Assembly (NCBI GenBank): GCA_009192285.1
Contig: CM018607.1
Location: 682,001 to 746,000 of the forward strand
DNA length: 64,000 bases
Reading direction: 5' to 3'
Origin: Morchella semilibera
Lineage: Eukaryota; Ascomycota; Pezizomycetes; Pezizales; Morchellaceae
Part shown: positions 19,904-42,461 of the stretch, piece by piece
Layout: each line of letters starts with the position of its first letter
Numbering within the stretch: the stretch's first letter is position 1
Notes under the pieces: generated by a model
Seen by the model: only the letters and a program-made list of their open reading frames with translations
What the model was told of the DNA's origin: nothing
Databases searched by the model: none
Made by a program: the position numbers and the translations under genes

Positions 19904-22087
19904 ATGATTGCTAAATACATTCCAGTCCTCCTCACGGCTGCTGGTATTAGTGCGGTCAATGGTCGTGCTATCGCTTCTCCACAGGGCGTGACAGATATAC
20001 TCACCCCTTCTACTCCCACTCCCGACAACTGTGTGTTGTCTTCCTCTAATACATATGGCATCAGTGTTGCCCCTATCGCTAGTATGTATATACCCTTCAA
20101 TGATTATTGTTTGGAACATTACGAGCTAATATTATATAATTATAGGCGCTGGTCCTATCACAAGAAGGCAGGCAATCACCCAAATTGCTGATGGTATGTC
20201 TACTCGATGAAACGTAGTGAAGTCAACTTAACTTACACCAAGAAGGTCAAGTTCAGGGTCCTAGTACGGGAACAATCCAATCCGCTGTCGCTGCCGGTAC
20301 TGGTGCCGGGGCTGCGGCTGGCGCTGGTGCAGCCAGTGCTGCCAGTGCTGGTAGTGCTGCCGGTGCTGCCGGTGCTGCTGGTGCTGCCGGTGCTGCCAGT
20401 GCTGCTGGTGCTGCCGGTGCTGCCAGTGCTGCTGGTGCTGCCGGTGCTGCTGATGCTGCCAGTGCTGCCAGTGCTGCCAGTGCTGGTAGTGCTGCCGGTG
20501 CTGCCGGTGCCGCCGGTGCTGTAGGGGGTGAGCTCTCTGCTACCCCAGAGCAAGCTGCCAATGCCGGTGCTTCCGCTGCTGCGGCTGGTGCCGCAGGAGT
20601 TCCCCCATCTGTGGTAGCAGAAAACACTGCTGCTAACGTAGCAAATGGTGTGATCCCGCAAACTCCCGGGCAATTCGGAGCCGGATCTGGTGCTGGATCT
20701 GCTACTGGTCCCGCTGGTGAGGCCGGAGCCAGTGCCGGATCTGCTACTGGTCCCGCTGGTGAGGCCGGAGCCAGTGCCGACGCAGCTGAAGGCGCGGTTT
20801 CTGCCACGCCGGAAGAAGCTGCTAACGCTGGATCCTCCGCAGCTGCGGCCGGTGCTGCGGGCGTCCCCCCCTCAGTAGTTTCCCAAGACGCTGCTGCCAA
20901 CGTCGCAAATGGTGTTGTCCCACAGACTCCTGAACAACTTGGAGCTGGAACTGGGGCTGGAGCTGGAGCCGGAGCTGGAGCCGGAGCTGGAGCTGGAGCT
21001 GGACCTGGTAATGGCGTTAGTTCCTCTGGAGTTGCTACTCAATTTGCTGATGGACAAATCCAAGTACCCGAAGCAGGTCTTCCTCCAATCTCTCCCCCTA
21101 CAAACCAGATTACCCAAATTGCGGACGGTCAAATCCAAGCTCCCGCTATAGGGGCTGGACCTGGGACAGCCGCTGGAGGTACTGGCCCTGCTGGATCACC
21201 CGGCGCTGCTGGGGCCGCCGCTGGCTCTGGAGCCCCCGGCACAATCTCATCTGCTACCCCTGAAGGCGCCTCTGCCACTCCTAGAGAGGCTACAAATGCT
21301 ACAGGCTCTACAGCTGAGGCTGGAGCTACAGGCGTTCCTCCATCTGATGTAGGCCAGGAAGCCGCTAATTTGACTGCTAATGGAGAAGTCCCACAGACTC
21401 CAGGTTCACTCGGCGCCGGTGGTGAAGGTTCCGCTACTGGTGCCCCTGGCGCTGCTAGCTCTGAAGGAGCCACTGCCGCTGCTACCCCAGAGCAAGCTGC
21501 TAATGCCGGTGCTTCTGCTGCTGCCGCCGGCGCCGCAGGCGTTCCCCCCTCTGTAGTTGGAGAAAACAGTGCCGTCGATGCTGCAAATGGTGTTGTCCCA
21601 CAAACTCCCGAGCAATTTGGTGCCGGTTCAGGCACTGATTCCGCTGCCAACGCTGCCGCTGGCGCCGCTGGCGCTTCTGGTGTCGCTGGTGTTCCAGTGA
21701 CCCAAATTGCCGATGGACAGATTCAAGCTCGCCAGATTCAAGCTCGCCAGAACGGGGATCTCTTGGGAGTCACCCTAAACAACGGTGTTCTCACTGATGC
21801 CCTTGGGCGCACCGGTTATATCGCCGATAACCACCAGCTTCAATTCGACAGCCCTCCCCAGACAGGAGCTGTCATCACCGGTGGTTTCAGCATTTGCGAT
21901 GATAATACCCTTAGCCTGGGGGAGAACAATGTTTTCTATGCTTGTGGAAGCTCTGACTGTATGCCTATTATGACCCACTCAAGGTATTAATATGAGACTG
22001 ACGTGGATTATGCAAATAGTCACCAACCTTTATGACACAGCAATCTACCCAGATAACTGCCAAGCCGTAAACCTATTGCTCAACTAG
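19904..22087 (+). CDS. PIR-type covalently linked cell-wall protein with Ala/Gly-rich modules
   Basis: Four exons (19904-20081, 20146-20193, 20246-21958, 22020-22087) give 668 aa. It has an N-terminal signal peptide (about residues 1-20) and a Kex2-type site TRR|Q at 65-68. PIR repeats of the form QIADGQIQ follow at about 73-79, 340, 363 and 560, and a C-terminal domain (about 575-668) carries spaced cysteines and the ending DFTNLYDTAIYPDNCQ. In PIR proteins the repeat glutamine forms an alkali-labile ester to beta-1,3-glucan, so the product is expected in the wall. Between the repeats lie a long Ala/Gly/Ser tract (about 90-165) and four modules of about 45 aa (starting near 174, 261, 418 and 487) with ATPExAANAG, AAAAGAAGVPPSVV and ANGVVPQTP. 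Introns 2 and 3 were set by the PIR repeat and by the conserved C-terminus. An open frame on the opposite strand is a by-product of the GCN-rich repeats. Confidence 0.92.
20330..20520 (+). repeat. GCN-rich tandem repeat inside the PIR gene
   Basis: Nine-nt units of the type GCTGCCGGT or GCTGCCAGT, partly in 27-nt higher-order copies, encode the Ala-Ala-Gly/Ser tract. A second tract, GGAGCT/GGAGCC, lies at about 20940-21003. Such minisatellites change copy number easily. Confidence 0.85.
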
Positions 22088-23073: not shown

Positions 23074-24051
23074 TCAAACATATTCAGCTCTCTTCCATAG
23101 CCATCCCTCAAAATCATCATGGTCGGACCTGGCCCTATCTGACAGCTTCGACTCCCACTTATTTGACACCCCTGCCAGCCTGTGCGTCTCTGGCTTATCA
23201 ACGTATATCTGGCGCTCTTTCAGTCCCGGTGCATCCTCGCCCTCGCAGCATATCGCTTCTTCGATGTGCTTCCTTGCAAAGACACTTGCTCGGGCCATGT
23301 CGCCGTTCGACACACAGATCTGGAACGCATCGTAGTATGCTCGTGCCACTCTCATGTCCTTTATCTCCTCGTCCTCTAGGTTTTCGATGATGGTCCTGCA
23401 AGCGCCGAGGGCCTTGGCTGCATTATCTACCAGCAGCTCGCCGGACCCGATCATACGGTCAAGCTCGTCGATCTCAGCTCTTCGCTGGTCGCTCTCCAGG
23501 GATTCATCCTCGGGGAGGTCGCAAATCATGCAATGGCACTCGAAACCAAACATTTTGAGAAGCTCGTCCTGTCGGGTAGCTCTGTTGCGGTGGGACGACT
23601 GTGAGGACTGGTAGCATATGGTGATTTCTTCACCGGGATCGATATCTCTGATCGCATGGACCGACTCCTTCTTCGTAACGTTGTTCCATGAATGGTACGC
23701 GTTCGGGGAGCAGCTGTGGTTGAGACGCGCGCAGGTGAGAAATAGACCAAGCTCCGGGGATTCTGGTCCGAATGGGAGTGAGTTCGTTCTGACAATTCCG
23801 TAGAAGGGGGATGCTTGTCTGATAAAGGCGTTGTGGAGGCTGAGAAAACTACGTTGCTGCTCCTTTGGGAGCGTTTTGAGGACCGAGGTCACATAGGCGA
23901 CAATATCGGTTAGGGAGGTTTGGGCAAAGTTTGCAATGCTGAAGAGGGGGGCTTCGGAGATGATTCGGGTACCGCGGGGGATGTAGGTTCGAGCTACAAG
24001 GCCCCTACCACAGCCAGGGACGACCATAACATCGAAGAGCTCCTTTACCAT
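23074..24051 (-). CDS. SET-domain protein (SMYD-like, no MYND finger)
   Basis: A single exon encodes 325 aa. The SET core runs from GCGRGLVA (residues 13-20) through the SAM/active-site motif NHSCSPNA (111-118) to GEEITICY (140-147). It is followed by a post-SET cysteine cluster ECHCMIC (172, 174, 177). The stretch between the two halves is short and has no MYND zinc finger. The C-terminal third is helical and TPR-like, as in fungal SET proteins of the SMYD/Set5 group. Members are lysine methyltransferases acting on histones or other proteins; the target here is unknown. The ATG at 24051 is the first Met and lies just before the GRG motif. All catalytic motifs look intact. Confidence 0.92.
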   Translation of the reverse strand: MVKELFDVMVVPGCGRGLVARTYIPRGTRIISEAPLFSIANFAQTSLTDIVAYVTSVLKTLPKEQQRSFLSLHNAFIRQASPFYGIVRTNSLPFGPESPELGLFLTCARLNHSCSPNAYHSWNNVTKKESVHAIRDIDPGEEITICYQSSQSSHRNRATRQDELLKMFGFECHCMICDLPEDESLESDQRRAEIDELDRMIGSGELLVDNAAKALGACRTIIENLEDEEIKDMRVARAYYDAFQICVSNGDMARASVFARKHIEEAICCEGEDAPGLKERQIYVDKPETHRLAGVSNKWESKLSDRARSDHDDFEGWLWKRAEYV

Positions 24052-24251
24052 GATTCGTTTTTTGTTTTTTGTTTTTAGTTTTTAGGAGTACTGGAGTGTT
24101 GTATAAGTTGCAGAGCAGTATGGAAATAGTATGACTGGCCTGAGTGGAAGAGTGTGTTAGAGTAGGGAAGGAAAGAAAAGGAGGAGGGAATGTTCCAGCT
24201 CGGGGGTACTTACAATATGTATTTATGTATCTAACGCCGGGGATTACCACA

Positions 24252-27318: not shown

Positions 27319-29029
27319 TCACACAGATATCTCCTCCAGTTTCCCCAAGATCTAGAGAGCATGTCAGGCTTGAAATACCATAGAGGACGTCATAGATTGT
27401 TCAACTTACTCTTTCAATGTAACTAGCGCTCACACTGACGGTTTCCTCTCGCAAAGGAGCCGTAATATCGGCATCGATCTCACTCCCAACCAAAGTTGCA
27501 GCATCATCATCACAATCATCATCGTTCAAGACATCCAGACAGGTCAAGCACGATACGACGACGTCAGTGTATTTTTTCCCGAGAATCCGTGGTACCCTCT
27601 CCACAGCCAACTTAACCATTCTTTCTTTTATTTCGTAGGCCCTGACTTTCTTTCCGTCTTCACCAGACCTCAGCAAATAGTCCGATATCTCCGTCATCAC
27701 AGGCTCATTGTCCTCTGTCCACCTCACAAACGACTGCCATAATGCAATTTCAAGCAAACAAACGCCGAGACTGTATACATCATGCTCCATCTTGTAAACA
27801 GTTTGATGGTATTGGGCTTGACGATCCGGATGTCGGTATAAATTTTGCTCCCACGCCTCGTCCCCTAGGTATGCCGTAGGGCCAGCTGCAGGGCGTGCCT
27901 TCTGAAAACCAATAAGGAAGGGAGAGCCAAGCGAATTCTTGTTGCCGGAGTCGAACATCAATATCATCTCCGGACGAAAGTTTTTGTGGACAAAATCAGC
28001 CGCATGAACATATAAAACAGTTCTAGCAAGCTCTTTCGCGAGTTTTATCCTTGCATCAAGAGGATATGACGATACGTTGTGAGTCTCCAACAGAAGAAGA
28101 GACCTCAAAGACTCTGGAGCGCTGAACCTTGCGGGTACATTGAACACCATCTCAATCCGATAGCTAGTCTCCGTTTTCGGCAATTCGACGATTCCTGAGC
28201 AGTTAAGAATACCAAAATCACTCGGAGAAACTGACTTAAGAACAAATGCTAGTTGCCGAAAATCTTGGGCACGGTTCGCTCTTTCGGTAGGGCTACAATT
28301 GATGGTATCAACGATAAGCCGACTACCTGGTAGTTCTAGCATGCTAGCGTTTGTGTGTGTAATTTTCTGCCGATTACTCCAGTACTTTTCGTCATGTTCG
28401 AAGTTAATCTGATTGCCCTTTATCCGCTTGTTCTGATTCGTGGCAGAGATAGCCTCGCGTAGATTCTTTACTTGTGCAAAGTAAGGAGGTATAGATTGCA
28501 TTGATTGAGTCTTAATCCTTTGATCTAGGATTGTGTTTTGGTTTAGAGTAAGTGTATAAATCAAATCTCCAAGGTTAGCATGCCGTCTTGAAAGTTCTTG
28601 AATAGCCTCGTTAAGTATTCTTTTGAAGAATACAAACTTCAGCTTCATCATAAGCTTCTCCTTCCTCGAATATTCCTCGATTTTCAACCGAATATCTCGG
28701 AACCTGCTGCAGAGAAGGTTTGAGAGTTTTTTAAAACAATCCTTGAGGCGTTGTTCGAGACAGTCTTCGAAGGATGCAAGGTACTTCATTTCCTCCTCGA
28801 GCTTGAGCCATTGACTTTGAACAACGGTGATGAGCTCATCTACTTCGGATCCGTAGTTCTTGAAGGTTTTGAATTTATCCACAAGATCTTTCCCCAGCCT
28901 ACCACCCCCAAAAAATAAAAACGTTAGCGAATTCCAATCTTAGATAAAAAGTGAATCCGGCAAAATTTACATGATGGACAGCTCCACCAGTGAAGGGAGC
29001 GCTAGCGCAATACCCACTGCAAGCTCCAT
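27319..29029 (-). CDS. HeLo-domain pseudokinase (MLKL-like domain order)
   Basis: Exons 28971-29029, 27410-28898 and 27319-27351 give 526 aa. The first intron (72 nt) splits the codon for Met20. The last intron (GTAAGT donor, CTCTAG acceptor) restores the family ending LGKLEEISV. The N-terminus (MELAVGIALALPSLVEL) and the following helices rich in Leu, Lys and Glu (to about residue 140) match fungal HeLo domains, which in HET-S and relatives insert into membranes and cause cell death. A linker leads to a protein-kinase-like domain (about 230-526). Its catalytic loop reads VHKNFRP (323-329), with the proton-acceptor Asp replaced by Asn at 326. The DFG site reads GFQ (350-352), and helix F is VYSLGVCLLEIALW. 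It is therefore expected to be catalytically dead. Function as a death executor is inference. Confidence 0.88.
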
Positions 29030-31967: not shown

Positions 31968-34905
31968 ATGGGAGCCCTAAATCACGGAAATGGCTCTGGC
32001 CCTGAGCGCGAGGTAGAAATCCTGGATATTAGGGTTAATAAGACAGGCTTTGAGTCGTCTTTGAAAGATGATATAGTAGCTGGCTTAAAAAAGAAAGCCG
32101 GAGAAAAAACCCTTCCTACCCTATTACTCTATGACGACCGTGGCCTGAAGCTGTTCGAAGAAATCACTTATCTTGATGAGTATTATTTGACCAACACAGA
32201 AATCGGGATCCTCGAGAAGTATGCAGAGAACATGGCCGAGAGAATTGAGGATGGTGGAGTTGTGATAGAATTGGGGAGCGGGTAAGATACCAAATTGGTT
32301 TACCCTTCTGGGCCCTGTTCTAACCCAGTTCAATCTGTGCTAGTAACCTCCGCAAAGTCAATATCCTCCTGCATGCCCTTGACCGTCTGGGTAAGAAAAT
32401 TACCTATTACGCACTTGACCTTGACCGGTCCGAACTAGTGCGGACTTTGCAGATGGTACCCACATTCAAACATGTCCGTTGCGTTGGTTTGCATGGAACG
32501 TATGACGACGGGAAAGCCTGGTTGAAATCGCCTGCAACAGCCGATCACAAGAGCCGTTGTATCTTGTGGCTTGGTTCTTCGGCAGGAAACTTCAACTTGC
32601 AAGGAGTTTCTGGGTTCCTGGAGGAATGGACGGCTGATGCCTTACGTGCTGGAAAGCCCGATTCTATGTTGGTTGGTCTCGATGGTTGTAAGGTTGCGGA
32701 GAAAGTCACGTTAGCGTACAATGATCCCAAAGGAGTCACACGGGAGTTTACTCTTAATGGCCTATGGCATGCAAATAGTGTGATGGGGAAAGAACACTTC
32801 GTTCCCGAGGAATGGGAATTCGTCGGGGAGTGGAACGCGGAAGAAGGAAGGCACCAAGCTTATTTCGAGGCATTGAAAGACATTGCCTTTGATGGTGCTC
32901 TCAAAGGTATCATGGTAAAGAAAGGGGAGAGGGTCAATGTTGAATACAGCTACAAATTTGATGAGAACGAATCACACTTACTTTGGGAACATGCCGGGCT
33001 AGCTGATGGAGCGCGGTGGTCTAACGATGCCGGTGACTATTGCAAGTACACCCACTCCCGTTCATAGCCGAAAAACGCAGTACTATATCTCATCTGAATA
33101 TGTGTATCTAATATTAAACCCTAGATCTTCATATGCTCTACAAACCAAGGTTCAACTTCCCCTTGGGACCACCCTCTGTATATGCGCCGAGTCCGGTCCC
33201 AAGAGTACCTGAATGGACGGAACTCTGGGCTGCATGGGACACTGTAACTCTTGGTATGATTCCAAAGGAAGCACTCACCACCAAACCAATCGATCTCCGG
33301 AACCCATGCATTTTCTACATCGGACATATTCCAGCCTTTTTAGACATCCAGCTTTCTCGTGCGTCGGATGGAACAATGACTGCTCCGGGGCAGGAATATC
33401 AAGACATCTTTCAGCGCGGAATCGACCCCGATGTTGACGACCCCAGCCAGTGCCATAAACACAGCGAAATTCCTAATTCCTGGCCTAAATTAGAAGAAGT
33501 TCTAGATTTCTCTCGTAGAGTTAGAGCGAGGACCCTGGCGCTATATGGCCCAGACGGAAACATTTGTGTGGATTCTCCCAAGCTCCGACGTGCTCTTTGG
33601 ATGGCGTTCGAACACGAGGCTATGCATTTAGAAACACTTCTTTATATGCTTTTGCAGAGCGACGATACACTCCCACCGCCTGGCGTGGTTAAACCTGATT
33701 TTGTCTCTGGTAGAGCGTGGGAAGCGAGAAGAGGAGTTAACGCCAAAGGCGGTGGTGCCAAGACATGGGTCGAGGTTCCGAAGAAAATTATTAGTGTAGG
33801 TATTGATGACCATGAAGTCAATGAATCAAACGGGTCGGCCAGAAATGGGTGCTCTGGCCACAAAGTCCGATACTATGGGTGGGATAATGAGAAACCGGCA
33901 CGAGAGGGCATTGAGGTGCCAGCATTTAAGGTCAAGTCAAACCCGATAACCAATGGGGAATATGCAAAATATCTCCACGCCCACTCCTCAAGTAGTATTC
34001 CCGCTTCTTGGACTTCTGCCGAATCAAAATCGGATAGAGATACCTATCAAAATTCGAATGGGAACACCCACCAAAACGGGCATGGTCCTGCCCATCAAAC
34101 TGGAAATAGTGCAGATGATTCCTTTGAACACTTCCTCTCTTTATACTCAGTGAGGACCGTCTTTGGCCCAGTCTCTTTGAAACTTGCCAGTGAATGGCCA
34201 GTAATGGCATCCTATGATGAGCTCTTTGGATGCGCAAAATGGATGGGAGGAAGAATTCCAACTGCAGATGAAGTGAGGTCGCTATATGGTTATGTCGAAT
34301 CTTTGGACGTTGCCGAGAGAACTTTAGGAAAGAGAATTGATGCTGTAAACGGGTAAGTAAAAGTCACAATGAGCAACCGGATATGTATTGCTGATTTTCT
34401 TACTCCAATTCAACAGACATCTAATCAATAACGGTGTTTGCGAATCTCCACCAAACCCGGAGTCAGTTTTCGCCGACGTCCGGGGTAATAATGTCGGTTT
34501 CAAATTCTGGCATCCCACCTCGGTCTTATCGGGTGGGGGGGCGCCACTAGGAAGAGGCGCGACAGGCGGTGCTTGGGAGTGGACTAGCACAGTGTTGGAA
34601 CGGCACGGTGGATTTGAGGAGGATGAGATGTATCCCGAGTATACAGGTGAGTGAAAAAAGACTTGTTTAGATGGAGCTAATAATTACTTTCTATAGCGGA
34701 CTTCTTTGACGGAAAACATAATGTGATTCTCGGCGGTAGTTGGGCGACACACCCAAGAATTGCAGGGAGGAGAAGTTTGTAAGACTTTCCAGCCTCCCTC
34801 CTTTATTTGGCTTGATGACTGACGGTAGTGCGGGATAGTGTCAATTGGTACCAGCGCAATTATAAGTACACATGGGCCACGGCCAGGATTGCAGCACCAA
34901 ACTAA
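31968..34905 (+). CDS. egt1: Ergothioneine biosynthesis protein Egt1 (EgtD-EgtB fusion)
   Basis: This cytosolic enzyme trimethylates histidine to hercynine with SAM, then couples hercynine to cysteine in an O2- and Fe(II)-dependent sulfoxide synthesis. Six exons (31968-32281, 32344-33041, 33125-34352, 34417-34646, 34697-34778, 34839-34905) give 872 aa, the usual fungal length. The EgtD half carries LLLYDDRGLKLFEEI and the SAM motif VIELGSGNLRK (about 98-109). The EgtB half has the DinB-like iron ligands in YIGHIPAF (His405) and HEAMHLE (His501, His505), then a sulfatase-modifying-factor domain with GGAWEWTSTV, ADFFDGKHNVILGGSWATHPRIAGRR and FVNWYQRNY. Intron 2 uses a GC donor (GCAAGT); a GT donor two bases on breaks the frame. 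The last exon was placed by the conserved ending. All key residues are present. Confidence 0.97.
33042..33124 (+). other. egt1: GC-AG intron of egt1
   Basis: The 83-nt intron starts GCAAGTACAC and ends CCCTAG. Only this GC donor keeps the downstream frame LHMLYKPRFNFP. The GTACAC alternative leads to an early stop. Confidence 0.8.
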
Positions 34906-37219: not shown

Positions 37220-40001
37220 ACCGGGACGTTTTTATGATTTGTATATACATTTGAGTAGGAAAGTCTTTTGTGGAATAGTGTGATTCCAATTCACAGGAGT
37301 TGATTGGTTTCATGATGAGGCACTTGAGTCCTCCACCCCCGCTGTGTTCCCACACTCCCAAGCGGCTAAATTTAAGCTTCTGCCAAGACTACACGCACGC
37401 CGAGTCTAGACTATGGCACTTGAGCTCTGGCTTATGACTGCGAGCCGGGTTTGTGTCAGTGACGGGATATTCAGTAAATGCAGGGACTCCATAGCGCAAG
37501 ATAAATCTACTAGGAAGTAGGGGGGTGTTACATGGGGGGCTAAGGTGAAATGCCGTAGAAGGTGGGATGTTTCTAGAAATAATTATAAGTTAAATTGATT
37601 AAAACATCCAGCCCACGATGGCTATACATGGACCTGCGGAAAGCCCCAAGTTATAATCAATGCATACATTACTTTTAGAATAAAATCTTTAACCCACCCT
37701 TAGCCTGATATCAAATAAAGTTAGTCGCTGCCGGGCCTGAGACATACAGAAGTATTCCCATCGTCTGAGAATATTGTGGCCTGTGAGCTCCGTGCAGCTG
37801 GGTAACCAAGTTCGAGACCCGCAGGTTCAGACCCCTTCTTCTCTTTCTTGTCTTCTAGTATTTCAATTCAACGCCCCCCCCCCCCTCTCTTACATTCCAT
37901 CTTCATTATCTTCATTGTCTTGCCTCATCATGTTTATCGGGTAAGAGAACACCAGAAGCTATTGGCTGTATCAAACTAGTTGTTTTAACCCCGCGGATTA
38001 TGCACATCGGCTAGGGTATCCACTGACCGTTCTTAGGCTCGAATATTCCCATCATCAATTCCACTAAAGTTTATCTATTATTCTGTTTAGAGTTTATCTC
38101 CTAGAAAGATTTCGAACCACCTTCAGGTCTGTTGCTCTCTCTCTTTCAAAGTTACCCCCCCACCCCAACCTTCGTTAGGTCCGTCTGCCCTGTACTTAAA
38201 CTTGTAACCGGTATCAGATACGTCCTTCCTACATTCTCATCTCTTCAAAGACCATCAAGAAAAGCGGCTAATGAATGTCTCCTGTAAGAAGTAGTTCATA
38301 GCTTGTCACTCGGTATCTATTTTTGGGTGTATCAGTTGACTCAAACACCCCCTTTTTTGATTGAAGATATTTGTAACAAACGTCTCAAAAGGCTGAGTAC
38401 ATTAGTTGGCTTTACAACCAGCAATTATGACCTAGTGTAAAACCCCTCTGCACCAGGCCGGGCTTTGGAGGAGTGCAACCCATTCGTTCCAGGTTGCTTG
38501 AGCAAAAACCGTATTGAGGTTGAGTGCTGGTAAAGAGATTCCCACCGTTTTACAAGTCCTAATTGCTAGAGCGGCAGCCTATCTCAGGACTACATAATCT
38601 TTAGGGCATCGATTCGGGAGTATTTTACCACCTATGGGAAGATAACATTGTGTTCTCCTCGACCGGAAAGAGCCATCTTATGGCACCGTACTTGGGCCTC
38701 TGGGCCACAGTCCCCAATTTACTATTCATTCACCGCTTCTCTGAATACTAATCGTGTCTAATACTGTAGTCAATTCCGGGGTCCACACCAACTGCTATCC
38801 ACACCCATGGAAGGGTCTCTTACAAGCCTTTGATTCGCCAACTGCAACAGTTTGTTTATGAGAGTGTCCGCAAGGGCCTTGTTCCACACCACGAACCACA
38901 AGTAAAAAAATTTATAAGGACTCCCATCAGCCTTAGACATTGGTTGATGAAAGCCGAGACAATCATCAATACCTTGTGAAGGTGGTCTTCCTCCGGTATC
39001 CTTCCAGGAGAATTGAAACGCGTATCGGCCCATAGTATTTGGATCTTCGCTGCACAACCGTAATTTGGGCTTCTATGCAGCTAGATCTCCAACTCAAATT
39101 AAATCTCTGTTCACGCCCGTGCAGACATAAACAGCCGGAATTCGGATCTGCGCTCTAACTTGGCGTTCGGCTATTACACATACTCTGCAGTTGGAGACTA
39201 AGCAAATTTTCCGAGTAACAATGCTCCGTTCTCTCTGCTATGGAATATTAACGCGTATCGTTGTCTCTGCGTCGAGTGTAGGGCTGCATGGTAGAGCACG
39301 AGATTTGACCTTGTAGGACAGGCATGGCATGCATAGTTGACATCTTGGCATCAACCGCATCCGCATCCGAGAGCCTCAAAACCTTATGAGGGGCTAGGCG
39401 CACGGCCCACCCCCATCACCATACTTAGCTTCGCGCAAGGCTTGCAGATCTTCTGGCTTCCACAGCCTTCTACCGCAATTTCTCTCATCTTCGCCTATAG
39501 AGCGGGGAACGGTTAACCACAGACGGACTGGACGCCTACATCTGGTACACCCTTCTTTCTTCAGGAAGAGTTTCACGGTACAAGCTACATGTAGTGGGAG
39601 GCAGTCAATGACATCGTTCAATTATACGATGTACATATTCTATGTATATTAACATTTGAGAATTAGCTTGAGATCGTACAAGTAGCAGGCTCGGATTGTT
39701 CTCACCCCTGAGATTATAAGCTACACGAATCATAACCCTCTGTGCGGTCCCTCGCCGATCTGACGCGTCTTCCCAGAGGATCCTTCCTTACGACTGACCA
39801 CGTGTCCTGGGCCTTTTCTGTTGGAGGATCTACTCCTACCCTCATTCTCCTGTCTCTCTGATATGGCTTGAGTTCCTCGTCTTGTGCCCCTCATTCTCAC
39901 CTTCACCACCAACGTCACCAAGTTTTATCATATTTACAGAATCTATCATTCCATCATACCATCTTCTAGTATTTCACCGCTCTTTAGAGAACTCTGTCAC
40001 T
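37220..40001. other. Intergenic, one tRNA-like sequence
   Basis: I see no gene. A weak tRNA-like box pair lies at 37777-37834, and a C run at about 37876-37885. Confidence 0.45.
37770..37845 (+). ncRNA. Weak tRNA-like sequence
   Basis: An A-box-like TGGCCTGTGAG (37777) and a B-box-like GGTTCAGACCC (37824-37834) are spaced 47 nt apart, similar to the element at 4790. Each box has a mismatch and the arms fold poorly. It is probably a decayed tRNA-derived sequence or chance. Confidence 0.22.
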
Positions 40002-42461
40002 ATGGAGAGTTCATTGTTTAGAAAACCTAGTGAGAGTGACGATGAGAGCTCATCATCTGAGGATGTCAGTAATGTGGCATTCTCTGCTTCTGAGGACTCT
40101 GCCAATGATTCATCCCAAAGAAGCATTTCTGAAAGCTCTGGATCCATATCTGCTCCATCAAACAATCAGCCGATGACGGTATACTCACCCGGATCACCCC
40201 TTCCCTTTCCCACTCATCATTTCACCATACTGTTCAACTCCCTTCTAGAGTCGTTTGTCCGATCACAAATCACCAACCCCGCTATGGCAGAGGTTACCTT
40301 GCTCGAAATCTCCCGCTTATTATCTGATCTTGGAGTTGCACCACCGGGTAGCGAAAATTTTGCTCGACCAGAGCTATCGAGTATGCGTGCGTCTGCCTTA
40401 AACGGCCTACAGGGCCTCCTCTGGCAGAGTTTGCAGCAACGAAGCGTGGGCGTAGAAATGGGGGGTCGAACCATCGCAGGAAATCAATCGATGGTCCTCC
40501 ACGAAAATTCAAGGCCTTCTGCGCCCACCAACCCCCCAGTACTTGCACGCACGAGGACAGAAGAATTTCTTGCTAGCCAAAACTCAGATGGGAGGAGAGT
40601 ATTACAAAGATGCTCCTCGTTGACATTTTTACCGAATGCTACAAAAGAACCTCAATGCCGCCCTCACACCGCACCAGCCTTTGCCGAGGGCCCGCCACCA
40701 GCCTTTGCCGAGAGCCCACCACCACCCTTCCCAACAGAGACACCACCAGAAGATGTCTTGCCAGAAATCAAGGTTACGGTCACTCCATCGCGGTACCAAT
40801 CCGATTTCACGGAGGTGGGGTTCCTCGGGAGAGGAGGTTTCGGATCAGTCTGGCATGTTAGGAACAGGCTGGATGGAGCTGATTATGCTATTAAAAAGGT
40901 AGCCATCAAAGACGAGGTCTTTAGGCAAATCAGTGAGGGCGGGCTTGGATCATTTCATAGAATCGTGAGAGAAGTTAATACTATGGCCTTATTGGAACAC
41001 CATAATATCGTGAGATATTATGCTAGCTGGATTGATGGAGTCATTCCTACAAGTCCCCCTCCTGGGCCAGCGGTTGCAGTCGATGTAAACGTTGGCACAA
41101 CTAGTCAACATAGAGGAGTGAAAACCCCTAAGAATGATCCAGCGAGTAAAGTCGAGGTTCCCTGCAACGGGAACCAGGACAAAGATCTAGACTCAGAACC
41201 TGTGTTTCTGTTTGAGTCAGACAGCAGAGTCAAAACCATAGATAGCACAAGTTCGTCGAAACCTCTAAGTAAGGAAACTGATAGCAAAGATTGGGTCGAT
41301 TACACGGACAACGGGTCTCACGCGCATTCCGAAGGGTCTATCGAAGACATACCTAGGACGTACTCCTCTAAAAACAGATCAGGCGTGGATCCTACCTCTC
41401 GGTATGGGAAGAATACTAACGTCCACTGGCTTCAAGACTCCACCGGGGTAGAATCTGCTCAGCACAGCGGCAATGATTCTGAAACGGGCTCCTCAGACTC
41501 CGCGGGGTTAGCTGCGGGGAGTGGTACTATGGTCAGGTCATCCACAAAAAACCCCGGCCAGGGGTGCAGACGATCCAAATCTAGGACACGAGTAACCCTT
41601 CACATACAAATGTCTCTCCATAGATATGGACTGACTTCCTATTTGTACTCGGAGATTAAGGAGAATAAGGGGGGCCCGCCACTTCACTGCTTCTGTGTAT
41701 TAGCCTCTTTGAGGCTGTTTCATGGCCTTCTAGATGGTGTCGCCTACCTGCATGGGCGGAGCATAGTTCATAGAGATTTGAAGCCTGGAAACATCTTCCT
41801 CGATGTTTATGAGGATAAAGGACGTTGTAAATGCCCCCACGTTCATAAATTATTTGTTGTCCCCCGAATTGGAGATTTCGGACTTGTCAAAAACATAGCC
41901 GAGCCTACTGGAGTAGCTAGCCCGGGCGCAGCTATAGGCACCGAGTTTTATAGACCGCCGGCAGGTATCATGGATGGTGACATGATTGGGAGAGATCTGT
42001 TTGCTTTGGGGGTGATATTGTTGGAGCTGGTCTATAGATTTGACACAAGTGAGTTACCCATTTCCCCCCTTGCCGATTCTAGGCTTTACTGACATTAGAT
42101 AGAAATGGAACGTGCTATGGTCCTATCCGCGTTGACTAGAGAGGGAAAGATTCCAGAAACCCTGGATCACCGCATTGTCGATATTATTCAAGGGTGTTGT
42201 TCGCTTGGACCTTATGCCGAAGGAAGATGGGACCTGGAAAGAGTACAGCAAGCTATCATTGAAATTGAATCTGCTGAGGAGGCCCAGTGGGCTGAGGATA
42301 TTGAACGTGCTGAGGCTGAACGTGCCGGGGCCCAGCACACTAAGCAAGCTCAACCTTCCGAAGGGGCTCAATGTACTGAGGAAGCTCAACGTTCCGAGGA
42401 GGCTCAATGTGCTGAGGCCCAACATGCTAAGAAAGCCCAATGTCCCAAGGAAACTTGCTAA
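40002..42461 (+). CDS. PEK/GCN2-like serine/threonine kinase with repeat tail
   Basis: Two exons (40002-42048, 42103-42461; 54-nt intron) give 801 aa. An acidic, Ser-rich N-terminus leads to a kinase domain with G-loop GRGGFGSV (276-283), Lys298 in YAIKKV, alpha-C Glu324, HRDLKPGN (His590) and DFG (Asp625). Between the lobes is a long disordered insert (about 350-540), as in eIF2alpha kinases (PEK, HRI, GCN2), and EHHNIVRYYASW is the family's beta4-5 sequence. The segment normally reading APE is PPA here (GTEFYRPPAG), so the conserved Glu is missing. After MERAMVLSALTREGKIP the protein ends in about seven 6-aa repeats (AQxxEE type). Phosphorylation of eIF2alpha under stress is inferred from the family. 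The ATG at 40002 is preferred to an upstream in-frame Met, which would add 40 residues of non-conserved sequence. Confidence 0.88.
42290..42455 (+). repeat. 18-nt tandem repeats in the kinase tail
   Basis: Units of the type GCTCAATGTACTGAGGAA follow each other head to tail with a few shortened copies. They encode Ala-Gln-x-x-Glu-Glu and form the last 50 residues of the kinase. Confidence 0.85.

Follow-up and report, generated by a model that had tools for sequence, protein, structure and literature searches.

A predicted HeLo-pseudokinase gene of Morchella semilibera and the divergent kinase genes beside its relatives

Most described fungal HeLo effectors operate under amyloid signalling from NLRs. 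As set out in a passage of a 2025 review, HET-S and HELLP with their NLR partners have a HeLo-type N-terminus and follow a two-gene logic of sensor and executioner (PMC12881547). The legend to Fig. 6 of the same review notes that HELL domains occur in proteins with a kinase or pseudokinase domain and, as far as that legend characterises them, these are very probably of the same class as the protein described here (PMC12881547). The HeLo-pseudokinase order itself is already in print there. The passage is a single sentence with neither motifs nor partner kinase genes, unlike the present data.

Related arrangements have been reported in plants and in other fungi. Plant MLKLs and wheat Pm13, as summarised in PMC10951266, likewise join a HeLo bundle to a kinase-like domain, and Pm13 is stated there to retain its key catalytic residues, unlike the dead motifs found here. 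According to a section of PMC9262711, HET-Vb of Podospora anserina combines an MLKL/HeLo domain with a TUDOR domain and forms a two-gene death locus with the SET protein HET-Va. Filamentous fungal kinases with ankyrin repeats, FfkA, FfkB and FfkC, are listed for Aspergillus nidulans in a part of PMC3591445, where a mutant phenotype was not found; going by that description, they could be of the same class as the partner kinases discussed below.

In the window, the whole stretch of 64,000 nucleotides of M. semilibera DNA analysed here, a predicted gene encodes a helix-bundle domain followed by a pseudokinase with dead catalytic motifs, as in animal MLKL of RIPK3-MLKL necroptosis. As in that system, relatives of the gene adjoin an active-looking kinase; unlike in that system, the partner kinases are mostly ankyrin kinases. 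Compared with HET-S and HELLP, a dead kinase replaces the amyloid tail, and the neighbour of the paired relatives is a kinase rather than an NLR. No Pfam model of a prion-forming domain matched the protein, in which 46 residues follow the match to DUF7580. The divergent kinase genes beside HeLo-pseudokinases are new here and were not foreseen in the preliminary description of the locus. In the open-licence literature searched, as far as its available text extends, no description of kinase-ankyrin/HeLo-pseudokinase gene pairs was found, and DUF7580 was not named.

Gene model, domains and surroundings

The predicted HeLo-pseudokinase gene encodes 526 residues in three exons on the minus strand, from the ATG at 29029 to the end of the stop codon at 27319. 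The spliced model, with start, stop and two GT-AG introns, reproduces exactly the interval 27319..29029 that had been proposed from the sequence alone, and the earlier observation is confirmed as real. Its parts are as follows.

27319..29029, minus strand: whole gene, HeLo-pseudokinase, 526 residues (gene model and paralogs)
28971..29029, minus strand: exon 1, encoding residues 1-20 with the hydrophobic first helix (gene model; hydropathy averages 2.07 across the best 15 residues)
28899..28970, minus strand: intron 1, 72 bp, GT-AG (gene model)
27410..28898, minus strand: exon 2, remaining HeLo, linker and pseudokinase domain (gene model, Pfam)
27352..27409, minus strand: intron 2, 58 bp, GT-AG (gene model)
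27319..27351, minus strand: exon 3, final residues and stop (gene model)
28562..29029, minus strand: putative HeLo domain, residues 1-132, with intron 1 inside (hhalign)
27518..28339, minus strand: pseudokinase (DUF7580), about residues 207-480 (Pfam 280-480; start from alignment)
27980..27988, minus strand: HKN replacing HRD, residues 324-326 (motif reading, alignment)
27908..27910, minus strand: Gly350 replacing the Asp of DFG, giving GFQ (alignment)
27875..27877, minus strand: Thr361 of the pseudo-activation loop, candidate phosphorylation site (loops aligned by eye)

The gene is counted as beyond chance because its open exon runs for 496 codons, ten paralogs are present in the genome, the DUF7580 match exceeds its cut-off, and a short first exon with the same end position (set by eye) is found in L010, L011 and L016.

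The HeLo half was recognised through profiles. The Pfam HeLo model (PF14479) gave no match to the protein even at E<=10, and the protein alone reached just 15.6% by hhalign against a HeLo profile. A profile of four N-termini of the window clade (A1, four paralog sequences) was aligned with a profile of eight HeLo N-termini from the same genome (A2), and hhalign returned 94.3% over 128 columns, with repeat comparisons at 93-94%. The score of 50.5 compares with maxima of 17.8 when single columns were shuffled and 24.8 when blocks of seven columns were (60 shuffles each), and with 21.9 for the reversed profile. A2 in turn matches HET-s structures at 1.7e-16; A1 searched against the PDB found no HET-s, and its best matches were unrelated helical proteins (best E 0.0056).

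Among nine whole family proteins scanned, three passed the Pfam HeLo cut-off (L017 at 24.0, L018 at 26.0 and L019 at 83.7 bits), and the L021 frame passed it at 25.3 bits in the genome search. L019 carries its HeLo match and DUF7580 in one predicted protein. Most members have a hydrophobic first helix, with a hydropathy of 2.07 in the window protein; the minimum among the 11 is the 0.88 of L015. A single-sequence AlphaFold prediction of exon 2 without exon 1 gave a pLDDT of 36 and a pTM of 0.25. By profile-profile comparison, the N-terminal ~132 residues are assigned to HeLo. The preliminary description had named a HeLo N-terminus outright; that identification stands at the profile level (hhalign 94%) and is weaker than claimed, direct Pfam matching being absent.

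The C-terminal half was identified more directly, by DUF7580 (PF24476), which covers residues 280-480 at 28.5 bits against a cut-off of 27. The HMM search that had been suggested for the protein therefore recovered a kinase-like domain and no direct HeLo match, and the Pkinase model matched below the Pfam cut-off. The protein lacks the beta3 Lys, the HRD Asp (HKN, within VHKN at residues 323-326), the catalytic-loop Asn (Met there) and the DFG Asp (GFQ, residues 350-352). Both the kinase-like C-terminus with VHKN and GFQ as dead motifs and the MLKL order of a helical N-terminus followed by a pseudokinase had been read from the sequence beforehand; the former is borne out by the DUF7580 match and the alignment, the latter by the gene model, Pfam and hhalign.

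When compared with solved chains, a pseudokinase profile of the whole family matched eIF2-alpha kinase 1, a LysM receptor kinase, LIMK1, IRAK4, TYK2 and Pto, with mouse MLKL in the eleventh row (E 5.4e-7). A profile of clade II (defined below) matched eIF2-alpha kinase 1 and IRAK4, with human MLKL in the fifth row (E 1.1e-6). These rankings fit the kinase neighbourhood of MLKL. They do not establish orthology, since animal MLKL, though one of the closest solved kinases, is outranked by others.

The surroundings of the gene in the window contain the following.

20221-21990, plus strand: repetitive cell-wall protein, rich in Ala and Gly, whose C-terminal domain is PIR1-like (domain scan)
23074-24081, minus strand: SET-domain gene, 3.2 kb downstream of the HeLo-pseudokinase gene (domain scan)
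31968-34356, plus strand: successive histidine-specific methyltransferase, DinB_2 and FGE-sulfatase domains (domain scan), an arrangement like that of ergothioneine synthase Egt1
39798-42092, plus strand: active-looking protein kinase with a long central insert, eIF2-alpha-kinase-like by eye (Pkinase 91 bits)

No kinase was found within 10 kb of the gene by tblastn with positive controls; the sole kinase found within ~15 kb on either side is 10.8 kb away and points the opposite way. No NLR domain was seen near the gene among the eight window frames scanned, with short frames read by eye. HET-Vb carries TUDOR where the window protein carries a pseudokinase, and the window gene too has a SET-domain gene nearby. 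A pairing like that of het-v was examined and rejected: relatives of the SET protein are near 0 of the 10 other family genes, so the neighbour looks accidental.

Relatives in the genome and their divergent kinase neighbours

All family data come from one host genome of 56.8 Mb in 23 contigs. The search gave fourteen rows, among them two nearly identical copies on C22 and one gene split over two rows. With the copies set aside and the split gene joined, 11 genes remain, the window gene and ten paralogs with identities to it of up to 51%. Contig pairs C21/C22, C9/C10 and C12/C13 carry the same genes at near-equal offsets with equal scores; they are either retained haplotypes or assembly duplication, and such copies were counted once. 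The L011 sequence analysed is probably one residue short at the exon 1-2 junction. In the paralog L012/L016 (C5:438.4-439.8 kb), the reading frame is interrupted between the HeLo portion and the kinase portion. No relatives of the family were confirmed in bacterial, archaeal or viral collections.

A tree of the kinase-like domain has two sides, each supported at 99/99. Clade I consists of the window gene, L010, L011, L012, L013 and L014, and clade II of L015, L017, L018, L019 and L021 with the fragment L051. The beta3 Lys is kept in all five clade II genes and is absent from that column in all six of clade I. Human MLKL keeps this Lys, unlike the window clade. The preliminary description had expected the HKN and GF motifs to be conserved among relatives, and this holds in the alignment: the HRD Asp is absent from 11/11 genes, which read HKN (7), HKG (2) or HKS (2), so that relatives with an intact HRD, which would have counted against the preliminary description, number 0/11, and the first DFG residue is Gly in nine, Asn in L014 and Asp in L013 (DWK), hence other than Asp in 10/11. 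At the DFG place, clade II has GFE, the motif of human MLKL, in four of its five members and GFS in the fifth, L019. A Thr or Ser occupies one loop position in 6/6 clade I members (Thr361 in the window protein; by eye). More distant rows, L023, L024, L031, L034, L051 and L052, were kept outside the 11; L051 reads HKN and GFE, L034 reads HGN, and L023, L024 and L031 are without a clear catalytic loop.

An inositol-pentakisphosphate 2-kinase gene (PF06090, 184.6 bits; L054, C5:432.5-439.0 kb) is placed between L010 and L012. Inositol phosphates are required for the activity of human MLKL; the placement is probably a coincidence with a housekeeping gene.

On the 5' side of six of the 11 family genes lies a protein kinase gene that is transcribed divergently and has its HxD intact. 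One of these kinases, which carries ankyrin repeats, is encoded between L011 and L018 on C2, and its kinase part identifies five strong genome loci, C22 copies aside; a query with another member gives the same top five. Four of these five loci stand head to head with a HeLo-pseudokinase, 0.6-1.4 kb between starts: the gaps between start codons are 867 bp for L018, 621 bp for L021 and 1050 bp for L015, and about 1.2-1.4 kb for L019, as measured from the open frame. The fifth (C5:1715k) is unpaired, the next frame being superoxide dismutase-like by eye, and L017 of clade II is unpaired as well. L011 adjoins the C2 kinase gene on the side of its ankyrin repeats, on the same strand and ~4 kb off. 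HxD, Lys, Asn and DFG are intact in all five members of this kinase-ankyrin family, and for each of them Pfam matches ankyrin repeats either in the kinase frame itself or in the one after it. Among solved structures they resemble kinases of the tyrosine and TKL groups, LRRK2, IRE1 and TNNI3K for example.

The remaining two pairs belong to clade I. L014 has a divergent kinase with ankyrin repeats, NEK-like by eye, 2.1 kb off, and L013 a divergent kinase ~2.2 kb off (HRDIKPGN and GDFG) that is the nearest relative of L014's kinase, with a 146-codon frame between gene and kinase and no ankyrin repeats seen in the stretch examined. The partner kinases of the six keep HxD and DFG or DLG, and five of them have ankyrin repeats. 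A fungal fucose-lectin domain (PF07938, L063:220-594, minus strand) also lies near L013 and its NEK-like kinase. No kinase was found in the flanks searched of L010, L012 and L017 by tblastn, with the L013 and L014 kinases as positive controls; these two kinases are split and escape a catalytic-loop pattern scan, to which tblastn was therefore preferred.

If 350 kinase candidates are assumed to be placed independently and at random in the genome, the odds of six of 11 genes having one within 2.5 kb on one side are roughly 6e-9, and those of four of five for the small kinase-ankyrin family roughly 4e-14; shared descent among the pairs breaks this assumption, and the clade II pairs may come from one ancestral pair and hence be non-independent draws. 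As a control, five other HeLo loci (L001, L004, L005, L006 and L008) were inspected, of which one, L008, has a kinase match 2.5 kb off, in tandem on the same strand; this control is weak, since the list behind it scored 123 of the 350 candidates and the partner kinases are absent from it. Genes that join a kinase to ankyrin repeats are no rarity in this genome, with at least six adjoining kinase and ankyrin matches elsewhere, which weakens the L013 and L014 pairings.

Proposed mechanism and alternatives

The gene pairs of the relatives look like a switch of the RIPK-MLKL type. The interpretation in the preliminary description, a pseudokinase-gated effector, is partly supported overall, and we lean towards reading the window protein as an MLKL-like fungal executioner of regulated cell death that would be released by a kinase. 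A dead kinase behind a HeLo bundle, with a live kinase beside the relatives, suggests release driven by phosphorylation. From this we infer the killing, the gating, the phosphorylation, the action on membranes and the trigger, as follows. The membrane-attacking part would be the HeLo four-helix bundle with its hydrophobic first helix, which the catalytically dead kinase domain would restrain. A real kinase may phosphorylate the pseudo-activation loop, with Thr361 as the candidate site, and so release the bundle, which would then oligomerise and permeabilise the plasma membrane. For the sister genes, the back-to-back neighbour would encode the releasing kinase, and its ankyrin repeats could sense the trigger; the window gene, with no kinase neighbour, would be controlled in trans or through a different signal.

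A fuller proposal, which is quite possible and is put forward tentatively, is that these genes make up a complete fungal kinase-to-pseudokinase death circuit laid out as divergent pairs. An ankyrin kinase would serve as the sensor and a HeLo pseudokinase as the executor, amyloid-free and RIPK3-MLKL-like. At least two kinase types would be in use: one clade would draw on the small ankyrin-kinase family, and in the other L013 and L014 would work with NEK-like kinases. The unpaired window gene would be run in trans.

The same executioner might instead be governed by binding alone, with the pseudokinase as a phosphorylation-free switch for a ligand, a partner protein or a pathogen factor, and with the neighbouring kinases acting elsewhere. 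Such a switch would suit the window gene, L010, L012 and L017, which have no kinase neighbour in the flanks examined, and the loss of the beta3 Lys throughout the window clade, to which the window gene adds that of the catalytic-loop Asn. We regard it as unlikely, given that it leaves a divergent kinase beside 6/11 relatives, four of them from one small family. The window gene itself could also be a degenerate, unpaired paralog, a non-killing regulator or decoy that dampens or competes with the paired HeLo-pseudokinases. Its unpaired state within a clade that lacks the beta3 Lys would agree with this, as would the broken frame of the near paralog L012/L016, but its own 526-residue frame is intact and its first helix hydrophobic, and we judge the decoy role decidedly improbable.

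A death role would be absent altogether if the family belonged to ordinary kinase signalling, with the N-terminus a scaffold or coiled coil and the pairs merely sharing a promoter. The window protein has no direct HeLo match, which leaves room for this reading; against it stand the profile link to HeLo and thence to HET-s, and the single predicted protein of L019 in which HeLo at 83.7 bits and DUF7580 occur together. Ordinary signalling is accordingly given very little credence.

Should the kinase-released executioner be the right reading, a dead-kinase gate with a paired live kinase would put the logic of RIPK-MLKL necroptosis into fungi, by ancestry or by convergence. It would also offer a candidate role for fungal ankyrin kinases, some of which, in the part of PMC3591445 concerned with them, showed no phenotype when mutated in Aspergillus. 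The gene pairs make the question of kinase and pseudokinase directly testable.
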